The translations under genes and the position numbers were made by a program. Source: Stenotrophomonas sp. 57 (GTDB lineage Bacteria; Pseudomonadota; Gammaproteobacteria; Xanthomonadales; Xanthomonadaceae). From it: 64,000 nt of DNA. Of the stretch, positions 31,701 through 46,374 are shown piece after piece. The notes under the pieces were generated by a model. That model was not told the origin of the DNA. It saw only the letters and a list, made by a program, of their open reading frames with translations, and did not search any database. Location of the stretch: NCBI RefSeq assembly GCF_030291075.1, contig NZ_CP127407.1, forward strand, positions 3,656,001 through 3,720,000. Reading direction: 5' to 3'. Position 1 is the first letter of the stretch, and each line of letters opens with the position of its first letter.

Positions 31701-31774
31701 CGGTCGGGCTGGGTGCGCGGGGGGCGCCGTGAATCCGTCCCTGGAGGCTTGGCAGCCGCATCCATGCGGCTGAC
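31701..31774 (+). repeat. left stem and 50-nt loop of a hairpin element, split by the IS
   Basis: The arm GGTCGGGCTGGGTGCGCGGG (from 31702) is followed by a 50-nt loop (31725-31774) with central GGCT and CATCCATG segments. The loop aligns without gaps to that at 44619-44668. The matching right arm is beyond the IS at 33031-33052. Confidence 0.8.
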
Positions 31775-31812
31775 TGATCTGGCCCCCTGAAAACGGACGC
31801 CATGAAGCCGTT

Positions 31813-32673
31813 TCATGCGACAGCCGGGAGCTGCCGGGCGTAGTTGTTAGGCGAGCGATAGCCCAGCGCCGAGTGTAGCCGGGCTGGATTATAGAAGCCG
31901 TGGATGTAAGCAGCGATGGATTGGCTGGCTTGTTCCCTACTGGCGTAAGGCTCGGCAGCCTCTTCTGTCTTGAGCGTCGCAAAGAAGCTCTCGGCCACCG
32001 CGTTGTCCCAGCAATTGCCAGGCCGGCTCATGCTTTGGACCACGTCATGGGACTGCAGCAGCTGGCGAAACTGGTTCCCCCAGTACTGCCCACCACGATC
32101 TGAATGGAAGATCAGGCCGGGTCGTTGTGGATGCAGAGCCCAAGCATTGGCAAATGCTTTCACCACCAGCTCTTCAGTCAGGCGCTTGGAAACGCTGTAG
32201 CCCAGCACCTGCCGGGTCTGGACGCTGATGACCACGGCCAGATGCAGCCATCCCTGACGGGTGGGGACATACGTGATATCCCCGACCCACGCCGTCGGTC
32301 CGGTTCCGGGGGCAAATTGCCGATCCAGCAGGTTGGGGGCGAGCTGAGATGAGCCGCCGGAGGACTTGGGTCGAGATCGGCCTTTGGTCTTGCCCTGGAT
32401 TCGCTCCTGGGCCATTAGCCGTGCCACGCGCTTGTGGCCGACCGGGTGATTCCTGGCTCGTAAGGCCTCGACCAGCCGACGTCGCCCATAACTGCGCTTG
32501 CTGGTCACATGAATGGCCCGAAGCTCGGTACGGAGGGCCGAATCGACATCGCACGTTTGGGCACACTGCCGGCGCAGGTAGTCATGGAATCCAGAGATAG
32601 AAACTCCAAGAACCCGACACAACAACCTAGTCGGGTAGTGAGTCCTTTGACTGGCGACGAAGGCGTACCTCAC
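31813..32673 (-). CDS. IS3-family transposase OrfB, catalytic part
   Basis: 286 residues. An N-terminal HTH_21-type region (SYGRRRLVEALRARNHPVG) precedes an RNase H-like integrase core. The DDE triad is visible: Asp in WVGDITYV, Asp in FHSDRGGQYW, Glu in NAVAESFFATLKTE. It has a GTG start overlapping orfA by four bases. The active protein is expected to be the OrfAB fusion made by a -1 frameshift. Confidence 0.95.
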   Translation of the reverse strand: MRYAFVASQRTHYPTRLLCRVLGVSISGFHDYLRRQCAQTCDVDSALRTELRAIHVTSKRSYGRRRLVEALRARNHPVGHKRVARLMAQERIQGKTKGRSRPKSSGGSSQLAPNLLDRQFAPGTGPTAWVGDITYVPTRQGWLHLAVVISVQTRQVLGYSVSKRLTEELVVKAFANAWALHPQRPGLIFHSDRGGQYWGNQFRQLLQSHDVVQSMSRPGNCWDNAVAESFFATLKTEEAAEPYASREQASQSIAAYIHGFYNPARLHSALGYRSPNNYARQLPAVA

Positions 32674-32963
32674 TTGGACTCTCTGGCAAAGAACGCCGCC
32701 GCTTTTTTTAGGATTTCCCGCTCCATCTTCAGATTGGCGTTCTCGGCCCGAAGGCGGCTGATCTCGCTTTCCAGATCGGTGGCCGGCCTGCGAGCCTCAG
32801 AGGTCAACGACCGGCCAGCACGGACCGCGTCAAGCCAATTTGCCAGCGTCTTGACCGACATCTCTAGCTGACGGGCCGCTGCGGCAGGCCCGAGCGACTC
32901 GGCCAACTCCACGGCTTGGTGCTTGAACTCATCGGTGTAGCTACGACGGGTGAGACGGGACAT
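32670..32963 (-). CDS. IS3-family transposase OrfA, DNA-binding part
   Basis: 97 residues. A helix-turn-helix (RRSYTDEFKHQAVELAE, then GPAAAARQLEMSVKTLANW) is followed by a leucine-zipper-like segment (LESEISRLRAENANLKM) that mediates multimer formation. It binds the IS ends. The frame ends just after the slippery site at 32702-32709. Confidence 0.94.
   Translation of the reverse strand: MSRLTRRSYTDEFKHQAVELAESLGPAAAARQLEMSVKTLANWLDAVRAGRSLTSEARRPATDLESEISRLRAENANLKMEREILKKAAAFFARESK
32702..32709 (-). other. programmed -1 frameshift site of the IS
   Basis: On the coding strand the site is seven A residues followed by G. Slipping back one base moves orfA directly into the orfB frame without a stop, giving a continuous OrfAB protein. 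This is the usual IS3-family arrangement. Confidence 0.85.
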
Positions 32964-33030
32964 AAGGGACCTCCAAGTGCGATCAAAGTATCGCTTCTTG
33001 GCGTCCGCTGACGGGGGGCCAGATCAGACA

Positions 33031-33052
33031 CCCCCGCGCACCCAACCCGACC
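33031..33052. repeat. right stem of the split hairpin, also a 22-bp direct repeat
   Basis: CCCCCGCGCACCCAACCCGA plus CC. It pairs with the left arm before the IS (one mismatch) and occurs again exactly, in the same direction, at 33290-33311. Confidence 0.85.
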
Positions 33053-33279: not shown

Positions 33280-33338
33280 AGCGCTGCGTCCCCCGCGCAC
33301 CCAACCCGACCGGCCAGGCATGGCCACGCACGGCGCAA

Positions 33339-41620: not shown

Positions 41621-42265
41621 ATGCAGCCCTGGGGGTGGACCATCGCGATGATGCTGTTGCCCGCGCTGTGCGTGGCGGCTACCCCGGCTGCGATGCCCAT
41701 GGCTGATGAGATGCAGGCCGACCGGCTGGTGGAACTGAGCCGGCGCTGGGCGGCGCCATGGCCGCGCACACCACGGCTTGCCGACCTGCATTCGGTCATT
41801 CCTGCGCCAGCGGCGGCCATCGAAACGCGCGCGGCGCCGCCGCACCTGACATTGCCTTCGATGCCGCTTTCACCGCCGCTGCGGGTCACGGCCGGCGTGG
41901 TGACGCTGCACCCGGACCATCAACGCGTGCAGTCCGTGCGCCTGGGCATCGGCGGTGCCTGCGTGACCCGCCAGCAGGTCAATCAGCGCTTCGGCCGCCC
42001 CGATCGCGTACGTCCGCCCAGTGGTCATGCGCCGGAACAGGTACTGACGCTGAGCTACGCCGAGGCTGATCGCTGGATCAGCTATCTGTTCCCCGGCGTG
42101 GATCACCGTTGCGTCTCGCAGGTGGTTCTCACGATTGCCGTGCCTCGTTCGTTGGATTTTCGTAAAGAAGGTTTCATGTTCCGTTCGCATAGTGGCCATG
42201 CACCGCGCACGCATGCCGGTGACCACCCCCAATGCAACGGACCACCATGCAGACCCGACACCTGA
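41621..42265 (+). CDS. hypothetical exported protein
   Basis: 214 residues, family not recognised. The N terminus (MQPWGWTIAMMLLPALCVAA) is a signal peptide. The middle is rich in Pro and Ala; the segment GGACVTRQQVNQRFGRPDRV and a later CVSQVVLTIAV look structured, with two Cys that could pair. The start follows GGGAG. The 3' end overlaps the TonB receptor start by 19 bases, so the last 40 residues, of poor composition, may be a run-on. Confidence 0.6.
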   Translation: MQPWGWTIAMMLLPALCVAATPAAMPMADEMQADRLVELSRRWAAPWPRTPRLADLHSVIPAPAAAIETRAAPPHLTLPSMPLSPPLRVTAGVVTLHPDHQRVQSVRLGIGGACVTRQQVNQRFGRPDRVRPPSGHAPEQVLTLSYAEADRWISYLFPGVDHRCVSQVVLTIAVPRSLDFRKEGFMFRSHSGHAPRTHAGDHPQCNGPPCRPDT

Positions 42266-44550
42266 CGATCGCCGTGGCGATCGCGCTCTCCGCCGCCGCC
42301 AGCGCACATGCCGCCACCGTGTCCGACACCGGCGCCAACGCCAGCACCGACGCCGCGCTGAGCGCGCAGACGCTGGATACCGTCTCCGTGATCGGCCAGG
42401 GCGAGACCCGCCAGGTGCAGCGCATCACCGCCGTCGACAAGCAGGTTCTGCCGCCGGGCACCAGCGGCCAGAAGATCCTCGATCGCCTGCCGGGCGTGTC
42501 GGTGCAGTCCAACGATGCCTTCGGCGCCAACGAGGAATCGCAGACCATCAGCCTGCGCGGCTTCGACAAGAGCCGCCTGGGCTATACGCTCGATGGCATT
42601 CCGCTGGGTGACAACAGCTACGGCAACTACAACGGCCTGAGCATCGCCCGCGCGATCATCGCCGAGAACCTGGCCGGCGCCGAACTGTCGCAGGGCATCG
42701 GCTCGCTGGGCGTGGCGTCGACCAGCAACCTGGGCGGCACCATCCAGTACTTCTCGATGGACCCGTCCACCGAATTCGGTGGACGGGCCAGCGTCACCGT
42801 GGGTGACAACAACCAGCGTCGCGGCTACCTGCGCGTGGATACCGGCGACATCAACGGCTTCTCGGCCTATGTCTCCGGCGTGCACCAGGACCAGGACATG
42901 TGGGCCGCGCCGTACCAGAACCAGACCACGCGCCAGTTCAATGCCAAGGCGGTGTGGAATGTCGGCGACCACCGCTTCGGTGCGTTCGTGGCCACCTCGC
43001 GCGCCAGCCAGGCCAACTACGCCTACCTGTCCAAGGACATGCTGGCACGCGGGCTGGGCTACGACTGGAACATCTATGCACCGGACTGGGACCGCGCCGT
43101 CGCTGCCGCGTACTGCGCACCGGGCACCTACAACAAGGCACGCTGCAAGTTCAGCGGCGGCGTCAACAGCATCGACGATGCCTACTACCAGAGCCGTGCG
43201 CTGCGCGACGACAACCTGTACTCGGTCGATGCCGATCTGCGCCTCGGCGAGCAGGGCCGCCTGAAGCTGCTGGCCTACCACCATGACAACCGTGGCCAGG
43301 GCCACTGGTGGGCCCCGGGCCAGCCGTCCTACCCGGGCACCGACAAAATGCTGCCGATCTCGATCCGCAGCACCAACTACACGATCAACCGCGATGGCCT
43401 GACCGCCGCGCTGTCGTGGACGGTGGGCATCCACGAGCTGGAGGCCGGGCTGTGGTACGAGCAGAACGACCATAACGTCTCCCGCAACTTCTACTACATC
43501 AGCGGCCCGTTCCTGGACGACCTGTACCTGAAGAACCCGGACCGCCTGCTGTTCAACCAGGACTTCGACATCCGCACGCGCCAGTTCTACGTGCAGGACC
43601 GCATGCGCTTCCTGGACCAGCGCCTGACCGTGGATGTCGGCATCAAGAGCCCGAACACCCGCATGCGCGCCACCGCCAAGCCTGGCGTGGAAACCAGCAT
43701 CGCCTCGGGCACGCTGACCGCCAAGGAATCGGTGCTGCCGCAGGTGGGTCTGGGCTTCAAGCTCAACGCCAACAACGAGCTGTTCGCCTCGTACGCCGAG
43801 AACATCGCCGCGTTCGTCGGTGGTGGCAGCGGTGGCCCGCTGCAGGTGTCGCCGGAATCGTTTGCGGCCAGCGCCGGCCTGGAGCCGGAGAAGTCCAAGA
43901 GCCTGGAAGCCGGCTTCCGCACCTTCGGTGAGAAGTACCAGGCCTCGATCGCCGCCTACAACGTGAAGTTTGACAATCGCCTGCTGTCGCTGAACCCGTG
44001 CTCGAGCATCGAAGTCGGTACGCGTCCGGAGTGCGTGACGCGCTTCATCAACGTCGGTTCGGTGAAGAGCCACGGTGCGGAGCTGACCTTCATCCTCAAG
44101 CCGATCGACGGCCTGCAGTGGTACAACGCGCTGTCCTGGAACAAGACCACCTACGAGGATGACTACACCTCGGGCGGCGCGATCGTGCCGGTAGCCGGCA
44201 AGATCACGGTGGATACGCCGCAGCGCATGGCCTCCAGCGAGATCAGCTGGAACCGCGACGGCTTCTTCGCCAGCCTGCGTGCCAAGTACACCGGCAAGCG
44301 CTACTACACCTACACCAACGACCAGTCGGTGCCGGGCGTGACCACCTTCGACGCCGGCGCGGGCTACGACTTCGGCCCGGGCCTGGGCCTGCGCAACGTG
44401 CGGGTGTCGTTGAACGCGACCAACCTGACCAACAAGCGCTATGCGGGCCAGCTGAGTTCGTTCGCGCCGACCGATCCGAAGGGCACGCGGTATGCGATCC
44501 ATGCGAGCGCGCCGCGGCAGTTGTTCATGACGGTGGCGGCGGAGTTCTAA
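42247..44550 (+). CDS. TonB-dependent outer membrane receptor
   Basis: 767 residues from the chosen ATG (five more from an ATG at 42232). Signal peptide ends near residue 22 (AAASAHA). A likely TonB box LDTVSVIG is followed by the plug domain (about 55-165, SLRGFDKSRLGYTLDGIPLGD) and a 22-strand barrel ending in Phe (FMTVAAEF). It takes up an iron complex or another large ligand using TonB energy. The ligand cannot be predicted. No Fur-like site was recognised upstream. Confidence 0.92.
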   Translation: MQTRHLTIAVAIALSAAASAHAATVSDTGANASTDAALSAQTLDTVSVIGQGETRQVQRITAVDKQVLPPGTSGQKILDRLPGVSVQSNDAFGANEESQTISLRGFDKSRLGYTLDGIPLGDNSYGNYNGLSIARAIIAENLAGAELSQGIGSLGVASTSNLGGTIQYFSMDPSTEFGGRASVTVGDNNQRRGYLRVDTGDINGFSAYVSGVHQDQDMWAAPYQNQTTRQFNAKAVWNVGDHRFGAFVATSRASQANYAYLSKDMLARGLGYDWNIYAPDWDRAVAAAYCAPGTYNKARCKFSGGVNSIDDAYYQSRALRDDNLYSVDADLRLGEQGRLKLLAYHHDNRGQGHWWAPGQPSYPGTDKMLPISIRSTNYTINRDGLTAALSWTVGIHELEAGLWYEQNDHNVSRNFYYISGPFLDDLYLKNPDRLLFNQDFDIRTRQFYVQDRMRFLDQRLTVDVGIKSPNTRMRATAKPGVETSIASGTLTAKESVLPQVGLGFKLNANNELFASYAENIAAFVGGGSGGPLQVSPESFAASAGLEPEKSKSLEAGFRTFGEKYQASIAAYNVKFDNRLLSLNPCSSIEVGTRPECVTRFINVGSVKSHGAELTFILKPIDGLQWYNALSWNKTTYEDDYTSGGAIVPVAGKITVDTPQRMASSEISWNRDGFFASLRAKYTGKRYYTYTNDQSVPGVTTFDAGAGYDFGPGLGLRNVRVSLNATNLTNKRYAGQLSSFAPTDPKGTRYAIHASAPRQLFMTVAAEF

Positions 44551-44590: not shown

Positions 44591-44696
44591 GCGAGGTGGG
44601 ACGGGCCGAGGCAGGACCCGCCGCAAGTACGTCCATGTAGGCTCGGTCGGCGCATCCATGCGCCTCACGGTCCTGCCTCGGCCCGTCCCACCTCGC
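44591..44696 (+). repeat. long-stem hairpin element 1
   Basis: Perfect 28-bp stem: 44591-44618 (begins GCGAGGTGGGACGGGCC) pairs with 44669-44696. The 50-nt loop 44619-44668 contains GTCCATGTAGGCTCGG and CGCATCCATGCG. Confidence 0.95.
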
Positions 44697-44750
44697 TCGA
44701 CAATTCCCTGCGCCGGCGCGGAGGCAATGGAAAGCAAGAGCAAAAGCAAA

Positions 44751-44779
44751 GAGCCGGGCATTGCCCGGCTCTTTGCTTT
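44751..44779. terminator. hairpin with T-run between the two long hairpins
   Basis: Perfect stem GAGCCGGGCA / TGCCCGGCTC (44751-44770) with no spacer, followed by CTTTGCTTTT. The AAAGCAAA/TTTGCTTT flanks extend the stem, so it could terminate both convergent transcripts. Confidence 0.7.
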
Positions 44780-44844
44780 TCAAGCTCTTCAAGCGCAATT
44801 CCTTCGGCGCGGTGATGTGCTGCCGCCCGCGCGGGAAACTGTCT

Positions 44845-44952
44845 GGCGGCGGTGGCGCACCCTGGCCAGGACCGTGAGGCGCATGGATGCGCCGATCGAG
44901 CCCCCATGGATGGGTTTACGGCGTGTCCTGGCCAGGGTGCGCCACCGCCGCC
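44845..44952 (-). repeat. long-stem hairpin element 2
   Basis: Perfect 28-bp stem: 44845-44872 (begins GGCGGCGGTGGCGCACC) pairs with 44925-44952. The loop on the minus strand matches the loop of element 1 at 42 of 50 positions, while the stem sequences are unrelated. Confidence 0.95.
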
Positions 44953-44998: not shown

Positions 44999-46252
44999 TC
45001 ATTCCGGCGCCAGCTGGTCCATCCGTATCCGGTTGGCGAACAGCGAGAACGCCAGCATCCCGGCCAGGCCGTTCGCCCGGCTCACCCAGTGCGGCAGCCA
45101 GCGCGGCGGCTTCAGCACACCCGCTTCGAACAGCGGCGAGAACGCGATCGCATCGGCCAGGCTCATCTTGCCGGCGAACAACCAGCGGCAGACCTGCAGG
45201 CGGTCCTCGGCCAGCATGTGGCGGAAGAAGGTGTGCACGGACACCAGGCCGCGCAGATACACCGTGTCTTTGGTAAAGGCCAGGCCGCCACTCGGCGGTA
45301 CCCCACGGAACACGCGCTGCGCCGAAGCGAAGCTCTCCTCGGCGTTCTGCCCGGCATCGCAGAAGTAGTGGAACACCTCGATGAAGTCGGCGCCTTCGCG
45401 GGCCATCGCGATCGCTTCGGTGCGCAGGCTGATGCGCTTCAGGCGCTCGATGTCGATGCTGCCGGTGATCTGCTCGGCAAACGTCGCCAACCCTTCCTGG
45501 GTAGCGGTCACTCGCGGCGACGACAATGCCAGGCTGGGCAGCACCTGCTGTTCCCGACCGTTCAATGCGGTCAGCGAATGCACCAGTGCTTCATGGTGGA
45601 ACAGCTGCGCGCGGTCGTAGGCGCTGAAGCGCGCACTGGTGCGCAGGCGGATGCGGGTCGGGCCGGCAGCGGCCTTGGACACCAGCTCCGGATCCAGCTG
45701 CACCTGGATGATGCGCGATTCGAAGAACGCATCGAGGTCGTTCTGCAGCTGCAGCTGCAGGGCAATGGCCGAGACCGGCACCTGCTCTTCCGGCGCCAGC
45801 AGTTCGTGATCGAGTTCGGCAGCAATCTGGATGAAGTGACGCGCGGCTTCGCGCGTGCTCGGGCCATTGCCCGGCAGCGGCTGCTCGGGCGCGCCGAACA
45901 GCTGTACTGAACAGGTATCGACCGCCGCGGTTCCCAGACCTTCCAGCAGCTGCGCGGCCAGGTCCCAGCTCTGCGCCGACTGCCGCACGTAGTGGCCCAG
46001 CGGATGCGTGTCATCGCAGTCGGCGGCGATCGCGGCCAGCGCGCGGCGCTCTTCGCTGAAATCCAGTCGCGGGTAGTCCACCTTCGGCAGCACCGGTTGC
46101 CCACGTGCCACACTTTCCAGGAAAGGTGCCTGCAGCGTGGCCGGCCAGCTGGTCAGGCCGAGCAGGCGGATGCCCCCGACGGCCTCGACCAGGCGCGCGT
46201 CGAGCGCTGCATGGTGGGCCACATCACGATCCAGCGTTGCGGTCGGTTCCAT
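44999..46252 (-). CDS. QEGLA-motif putative metallopeptidase (DUF1704)
   Basis: 417 residues. It carries HEALVH in LFHHEALVHSLTALNG (an HExxxH metal motif) and TATQEGLATFAEQ, the QEGLA motif of proteins once annotated as flavohemoglobin expression modulators. Eukaryotic relatives (MATCAP) are tyrosine carboxypeptidases acting on tubulin, so a protease role is plausible, but the bacterial substrate is unknown. No signal peptide, so cytoplasmic. The start is MEPTATLDRD; an upstream frame is open without a ribosome site. Confidence 0.82.
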   Translation of the reverse strand: MEPTATLDRDVAHHAALDARLVEAVGGIRLLGLTSWPATLQAPFLESVARGQPVLPKVDYPRLDFSEERRALAAIAADCDDTHPLGHYVRQSAQSWDLAAQLLEGLGTAAVDTCSVQLFGAPEQPLPGNGPSTREAARHFIQIAAELDHELLAPEEQVPVSAIALQLQLQNDLDAFFESRIIQVQLDPELVSKAAAGPTRIRLRTSARFSAYDRAQLFHHEALVHSLTALNGREQQVLPSLALSSPRVTATQEGLATFAEQITGSIDIERLKRISLRTEAIAMAREGADFIEVFHYFCDAGQNAEESFASAQRVFRGVPPSGGLAFTKDTVYLRGLVSVHTFFRHMLAEDRLQVCRWLFAGKMSLADAIAFSPLFEAGVLKPPRWLPHWVSRANGLAGMLAFSLFANRIRMDQLAPE

Positions 46253-46296
46253 GGGCGGACTATAGCGCCCTGCCGTATCCGGCGCAGTGCGCCGCC

Positions 46297-46374
46297 GCCC
46301 GAGCATCGGCTCGGGCGCTACAGGGAATGATTCCACCGCGAACCAAGTGTAGAGCAGAGCCCATGCTCGGCTGC
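46297..46374. repeat. two back-to-back REP units
   Basis: A unit ending GGCTCGGGCGCTAC (46297-46321) and another starting GTAGAGCAGAGCCCATGC (46349-46374), with GTAG heads facing each other across 27 bases. They lie between two minus-strand genes. Confidence 0.75.

Follow-up and report, generated by a model that had tools for sequence, protein, structure and literature searches.

The window, that is, the whole stretch of 64,000 nucleotides from Stenotrophomonas sp. 57 analysed here, carries two long hairpins, elements A and B, between a TonB-receptor gene (42232-44550, plus strand) and a MATCAP-domain gene (44999-46336, minus strand), whose 3' ends flank the pair. A third copy, element C, is interrupted by an IS3-type element with rve and HTH_21 domains. 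The strand on which the loops of an element read GGA is referred to as its GGA strand, the opposite one as its UCC strand. The features are:

44591-44696, GGA strand on minus: element A, a perfect 28-bp clamp (44591-44618 with 44669-44696) round a two-armed interior; covariance-model match
44628-44639, minus: arm H1 of A, UAC-[AUGGAC]-GUA on the GGA strand
44649-44664, minus: arm H2 of A, GGCGC-[AUGGAU]-GCGCC on the GGA strand
44742-44780, no strand: inverted repeat between A and B, perfect over 18 bp with A-/T-rich flanks, present in most aligned orthologous loci; putative bidirectional intrinsic terminator
44845-44952, GGA strand on plus: element B, a perfect 28-bp clamp (44845-44872 with 44925-44952), head to head with A; covariance-model match
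44878-44893, plus: arm H2 of B, GGCGC-[AUGGAU]-GCGCC
44903-44914, plus: arm H1 of B, CCC-[AUGGAU]-GGG
31702-31774, GGA strand on minus: first stem arm and interior of element C, with H1 at 31734-31745 and H2 at 31755-31770
31775-33026, no strand: IS3-type insertion inside C, 1252 bp, flanked by the target duplication GAC (31772-31774, 33027-33029)
33031-33052, minus: second stem arm of C, pairing with 31702-31723 at 21 of 22 positions; the one mismatch, C.A, is G.U on the GGA strand
33286-33311, plus: lone arm corresponding to the stem of C, inverted, with neither loop nor second arm; probably the remnant of a deleted inverted partner of C

Anatomy of the elements and their fate at the locus

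Recomputation confirmed the original prediction of perfect 28-bp stems in A and B, facing in opposite directions, and of loops alike at 42 of 50 positions. The 50-nt interiors align without gaps (A-B 42/50, A-C 38/50, B-C 38/50), and the stems of A and B are unlike each other except for the innermost CAGGAC. RNA folding of both strands of A and B yielded z-scores from -9.6 to -11.1. Element C had been proposed as a further copy with a stem of its own; its interior indeed aligns with that of A without gaps, and its stem comprises 22 bp with one mismatch and is split by the IS.

What had been described as a conserved 50-nt loop is conserved, but in reality consists of two small hairpin arms, H1 and H2, with matching hexaloops and no open loop. 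Moreover, the informative strand is the opposite (GGA) strand, whose CsrA/RsmA consensus had been missed. On the UCC strand, H1 has a 3-bp stem (CCC/GGG, TAC/GTA or TCC/GGA) and a hexaloop N-TCC-N-T; H2 is the longer arm with the same type of loop, and further pairs co-vary. Among 24 elements taken from 23 further genomes of the class, 97.8% of cells are paired, and both-sided changes occur in 24 of 28 pairs. Slid and shuffled controls gave far lower values in five pairing measures, except for further pair types (43/500). Across distinct elements the clamp has a median length of 27 bp and reaches 36 bp; in 23 of them it is not extendable past the model's 14 bp. H1 is rebuilt on another stem in four elements that belong to a single genus (L313, L314, L325 and L326; seen for G385 and assigned to G381/G385), with a loop that is again of the A(N)GGAX type.

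The A/B region found a match in 60 of 61 genomes of the genus when used as a query. For an alignment of orthologous loci, 25 of 30 were used, as five lacked a flank. Of these 25 loci, 22 retain A and 23 retain B: A is absent in L269, L271 and L272, and B is absent in L271 and half-replaced in L272. Judged by eye, A and B each show three stem types, which are replaced as blocks; two stem types of B share the inner half, and those of A share short inner stretches. The H2 types change independently at these loci. A double change from C-G to T-A is found in B of L260, L262 and L268, with L258 as an intermediate that has U.G on the GGA strand. In L249, the interior of A is inverted within an unchanged stem, so that both elements have GGA on the plus strand. 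Palindromic inserts occur in the loops in L266 (H1 of A) as well as in L267 and L268 (H2 of B). The insert in L266 resembles that at position 563278 of the own genome, where, as in the partner of 3051648, a small palindromic sequence is inserted in an H1 or H2 loop.

The IS3-type element lies at the same base inside five of the 81 parsed copies of the genome (see below), namely in the window and at 776775, 2014463, 2885627 and 3214350. Both of its ends were verified in the window copy; the other four were recognized by one IS end, in both orientations. Positions 658206 and 1818989 of the same genome look like IS excision footprints. The IS3-type element may target the hairpin repeat.

Copies, pairs and distribution

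A pattern of the loop core with up to three mismatches matched the own genome 80 times and its reversed control not once; GCATCCATGC gave 126 matches versus 5 for the control. A covariance-model search, of the kind that the original prediction had proposed, brought up further copies both here and in other genomes of the class. Model R1 has 80 positions and was built from 28 of the 61 distinct sequences in a table of 62 copies. It found at least 125 copies in the own genome at E ≤0.001, which is a lower bound because only the best 150 of 5146 candidates were scored. For parsing, 135 motif sites were reduced to 85 by an element filter, and four of these (510986, 1148795, 3313218 and 3504788) were dropped by eye, leaving 81 copies. 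A further 19 failed the gap-free/TCC/arm filter that leads to the 62-copy table; as this filter demands TCC, TCC in H1 is fixed there by selection.

Grouped by the inner 14 nt of the stem, the 62 cleanly aligned copies make up 12 families, with 34, 15, 3 and 2 members and eight singletons. A has a singleton stem, and B belongs to the family of three; the two largest families (49 of 62 copies) share flanks. Thus, the claim of freely varying stems stands for the class, across which stems differ widely, but not for the own genome, where many recur. Among the 125 copies, 68 form 34 pairs with less than 500 bp between partners, all of them head to head; 57 are unpaired, although some of these do have a partner with a different H2 apex. 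Identical stems (≥0.8) within a pair were found in 1 of 33 pairs versus 5.1 expected, with 49 of 3000 shuffles as low, and the mean stem identity within pairs is not below that of shuffled pairs (501/3000). No bias towards a replication strand was seen (right arm 31 plus, 33 minus; left arm 32 plus, 29 minus), with the origin assumed near the start of the record, as backed by GC skew.

The repeat is widespread beyond this genome. Copies were found in 48 of 274 genomes of a class sample, own genome included (17 candidates scored per genome), and in 19 of 299 genomes of a phylum sample (15 candidates scored), all 19 belonging to the same class, the Gammaproteobacteria. The exact pattern of the GGA strand matched at least 119 stretches of named genomes. 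Among the 80 stretches listed are Xanthomonas, Stenotrophomonas, Halopseudomonas, Rheinheimera, Methylomonas, Shewanella, Cellvibrio, Idiomarina, Aquisalimonas, one Yersinia and others; listed titles that name a group give Gammaproteobacteria, about three of them Proteobacteria alone. A deeper search of twelve positive genomes revealed 3 to 60 copies each. Within the own genus, 29 of 39 genomes carry copies, and the number per genome runs from 0 to at least 120. This range, with ten genomes lacking any copy, argues against a core function.

At the named loci, neighbors at less than 500 bp comprise 40 head-to-head, 11 tail-to-tail and 13 same-direction cases, and 85 of 190 elements are singles. 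In L237, three head-to-head pairs repeat about every 303 bp, and L315/L327 contain several same-direction copies about 227 bp apart. With the distant copy L174 as a query, 5 of 5426 E. coli genomes were matched at 78% identity over 70% of the query, four of them on plasmids. In two wastewater E. coli cases (L338 and L339), a copy lies about 105 nt behind a gene for an iron-containing alcohol dehydrogenase, beside IS remnants in an imported segment. A phage or plasmid origin was rejected: element B had no match among phage and PLSDB records, and the exact GGA pattern matched two viral contigs.

The folding strand and candidate CsrA/RsmA sites

Mismatches in the clamp differ between the two strands. 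They were counted over the innermost 14 bp of the clamp in 169 distinct arm pairs from other genomes, grouped in 83 clusters, with position and type counted once per cluster; 33 of 268 stems with too few pairs were left out. Read on the UCC strand, A.C exceeds G.T (55 vs 19, p 3e-5) and C.T exceeds G.A (38 vs 5, p 3e-7); C.C was found 10 times vs 2 for G.G, T.T 6 times and A.A 5 times. With one element per cluster, the counts are 31 vs 7 and 26 vs 1, respectively. Looser grouping into eight clusters gives 26 vs 13 for the first comparison (p 0.053) and 21 vs 5 for the second (p 0.0025); the loosest grouping, into three clusters, gives 23 vs 12 for the first (p 0.09) and 19 vs 5 for the second (p 0.007). 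When the largest cluster is removed from these loose sets, almost no mismatches remain and the asymmetry vanishes. The full stems of the own genome show A.C 34 times, G.T 14 times and other mismatches 27 times in the same reading.

The mismatches favored on the GGA strand are hence G.U, G.A and G.G. Strand-symmetric mutation would yield equal numbers of A.C and G.T at any base composition. The covariance model gives credit for G-U on the UCC strand, so that a bias arising from it would run the opposite way. Selection thus acts on folding of the GGA strand, be it as RNA or as single-stranded DNA, a conclusion that weakens with loose clustering. The GGA strand also has the more stable fold in 232 of 300 elements. 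Covariation and mismatch bias together support the earlier proposal of a single-stranded feature, RNA or DNA, with conserved loops and a stem that is a mere clamp; the asymmetry itself cannot separate RNA from single-stranded DNA.

On the GGA strand, both loops have the form C-[A N G G A X]-G, rarely as a pentaloop A-G-G-A-X. Among 239 distinct foreign elements, 203 carry two C-A(N)GGAX-G sites, 35 keep one intact site alone and 1 has none, while two sites occur in 2 on the UCC strand and in 0 on the reversed strand; many of these loci were fetched by a pattern that contains the H1 site and are thus selected for it. The 59 elements found by the model only (sets A2 and A5) have two sites in 55 cases and a single intact one in 4, with two on the UCC strand in 0. 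The 61 distinct copies of the own genome, for which TCC in H1 was preselected, have two sites in 59 cases and one in 2. Elements with two hexaloops space them 23 nt start to start in 164 of 188 cases (range 22-28), which leaves a gap of 20 nt between the two GGAs.

A high-affinity Csr/Rsm site is described as an ANGGAX hexaloop placed directly on a C-G-closed stem, with N and X looped out; N is absent in two RsmZ loops (PMC4005645). One CsrA/RsmA dimer bridges sites 10 to 63 nt apart, with an optimum above 18 (PMC7652899). The varying loop positions of our elements are N and X of this site. In sequence and distance, the two loops agree with these published descriptions, which makes them candidate high-affinity sites. 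A csrA match is present in 44 of 48 element-bearing genomes and in 191 of 226 other genomes of the class (p 0.26); G196, rated 98% complete, bears elements and has no csrA match.

Interpretation and alternatives

Our preferred explanation is that the GGA strand of these dispersed repeats folds as RNA and is predicted to bind CsrA/RsmA dimers, to which we assign a probability of roughly 0.55. A clamp of about 27 bp would close a junction with two short protruding arms, each presenting its A-N-G-G-A-X loop on a C-G pair as a putative high-affinity site, and the gap of 20 nt would let a single dimer hold both. As any pairing clamp would suffice, its sequence could drift or be swapped while loops and geometry stay. 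Template switching in quasi-palindromes might help to keep drifting stems perfect. Since close pairs in the own genome are always head to head, transcription from either side would yield one GGA hairpin. The outcome might be that CsrA/RsmA is titrated, or that the carrier transcripts are protected or processed in a CsrA-dependent manner. Action as RNA rather than as single-stranded DNA, the binding and its outcome are what we infer from these features. Kissing between the UCC and GGA loops of a pair is noted as conceivable. Wider in scope and correspondingly more tentative, with less than even odds in our view, is the idea of class-wide interspersed CsrA/RsmA traps, with up to more than 100 dimer-sized double sites per genome, free clamps and inverted pairs, which would couple 3'-end and read-through transcription to CsrA.

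The main weakness of the RNA reading is that mRNAs show no preference for the GGA strand. All copies had been said to lie between convergent genes, which is true of A/B and C within the window but not genome-wide: by genes from our own caller, the 81 parsed copies comprise 31 convergent, 40 tandem and 10 divergent cases, none inside a called gene, and the tandem ones are GGA-sense in 23 and UCC-sense in 17 cases. Among 87 singles elsewhere, 27 are convergent, 48 tandem and 12 divergent, by a crude choice of ORFs and with 29 edge and 19 far cases among all elements set aside. Here the tandem singles are GGA-sense in 18 and UCC-sense in 30 cases (p 0.11). This non-significant excess is what speaks for the converse assignment, in which the UCC strand is the functional RNA and its two loops pair with or bind another partner; the mismatch asymmetry, however, favors the GGA strand wherever the counts are useful, and we consider this assignment very improbable. 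In a head-to-head pair, a transcript from either side runs through UCC before it reaches GGA; in A/B, the GGA hairpin would lie beyond the putative terminator. The elements themselves were rejected as intrinsic terminators, as inspection by eye of the flanks of A, B and the listed elements revealed no U-run directly after the stem. Nor was a flank conserved across the class seen by eye among the elements listed.

The most serious competitor of the CsrA/RsmA reading is a selfish, REP-like mobile palindrome, whose folded strand (DNA or RNA) would be the intermediate of mobilization and whose double loop would be the recognition site of an enzyme, the CsrA likeness being coincidental or secondary. 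Copy numbers from none to at least 120 within one genus, the inverted pairs, and the 49 of 62 own copies in two stem families with shared flanks, as after a recent spread, are all in line with it. Copy number also correlates with the count of Y1_Tnp genes across 39 genomes (rho 0.66, or 0.55 as a partial correlation that accounts for genome size; kinship uncorrected). However, none of the elements lies within 1.5 kb of the three Y1_Tnp genes of this genome, seven of the ten element-free genomes possess Y1_Tnp, the conserved part has no GTAG/CGTC tag, and a replication-strand bias is lacking. Furthermore, the persistence of A and B at most aligned loci resembles vertical inheritance, and the loop constraint is that of a known RNA-protein site. 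We regard the selfish reading as less likely than the CsrA-site reading, and the two could hold together. The earlier suggestion of a mobile element with ends remade at each site found no confirmation: block-swapped stems, an inverted loop and variable copy number were seen, but no mobilizing enzyme or insertion mechanism was found.

A cruciform or structural insulator that acts between genes as double-stranded DNA would account for long, perfect and exclusively intergenic palindromes. Both strands would then fold and A.C should equal G.T, which is not what was seen, so that a cruciform as the only form was rejected; loops conserved at the resolution of a protein site would be unexpected as well. 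The chance that such a DNA structure is the right explanation appears slight.

Known repeats share several of these features. REP elements (GTAG/CGTC families, SMAG) and BIMEs are, like the hairpins described here, extragenic, multicopy, palindromic and often arranged as inverted dimers, and they lie mostly between convergent or unidirectional genes (PMC3733652). In contrast to REPs of 20-40 bp with short conserved stems and a GTAG/CGTC end, our hairpins have a free clamp with a median of 27 bp and a conserved two-armed GGA apex. No conserved GTAG or CGTC end was present in the 80-column alignments or, by eye, in the flanks, and an exact-match scan, too strict to carry much weight, detected no GTAG palindromes near Y1_Tnp genes. 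An ordinary REP was rejected on stem, tag and RAYT.

On the RNA side, CsrB/RsmZ-type sRNAs carry several sites per RNA, likewise as A(N)GGAX loops on stems closed by a C-G pair, with pentaloop variants among them (PMC4005645); they are single sRNA genes, whereas our hairpins have two sites per unit, up to more than 100 dispersed copies and a long free clamp. RsmU of Xanthomonas, from the same bacterial family, is an RsmA-binding RNA that derives from a 3'UTR and lacks Rfam relatives (PMC7694677). RsmA still bound it after all four of its predicted GGA motifs had been altered (PMC7694677), so that GGA content alone is an imperfect guide. RsmU differs from our hairpins in sequence and architecture, and it was rejected as their identity because the covariance model had no match in 25 comEA loci from 24 genomes of the family (best E 1.3). 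Many hairpin motifs of the CAGGA type occur 3' of comEA in several genera of the family (L282, L287, L288 from the own genome, L291, L293 and L299), as expected for RsmU-like RNAs outside Xanthomonas. CsrR1/CsrR2 of Alcanivorax were also rejected, being described as single loci (PMC9788540).

The original prediction knew of no name for the family, and searches of Rfam and of open-access papers brought up no description of it either. The window had no Rfam match at the gathering score, and those at E ≤10 were all far below gathering and mostly to microRNA models. The literature search covered open-access papers, with subscription papers and preprints outside its scope.

If the CsrA/RsmA reading is true, more than 100 double CsrA/RsmA sites per genome would have been overlooked as anonymous palindromes. 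They would bear on the setting of free CsrA/RsmA in Stenotrophomonas, Xanthomonas and many other Gammaproteobacteria. The fields of interspersed palindromic repeats and of Csr/Rsm regulation would thereby be joined, and the family would provide a clear example of repeats that are recognized by their loops, with the stem as a free clamp.
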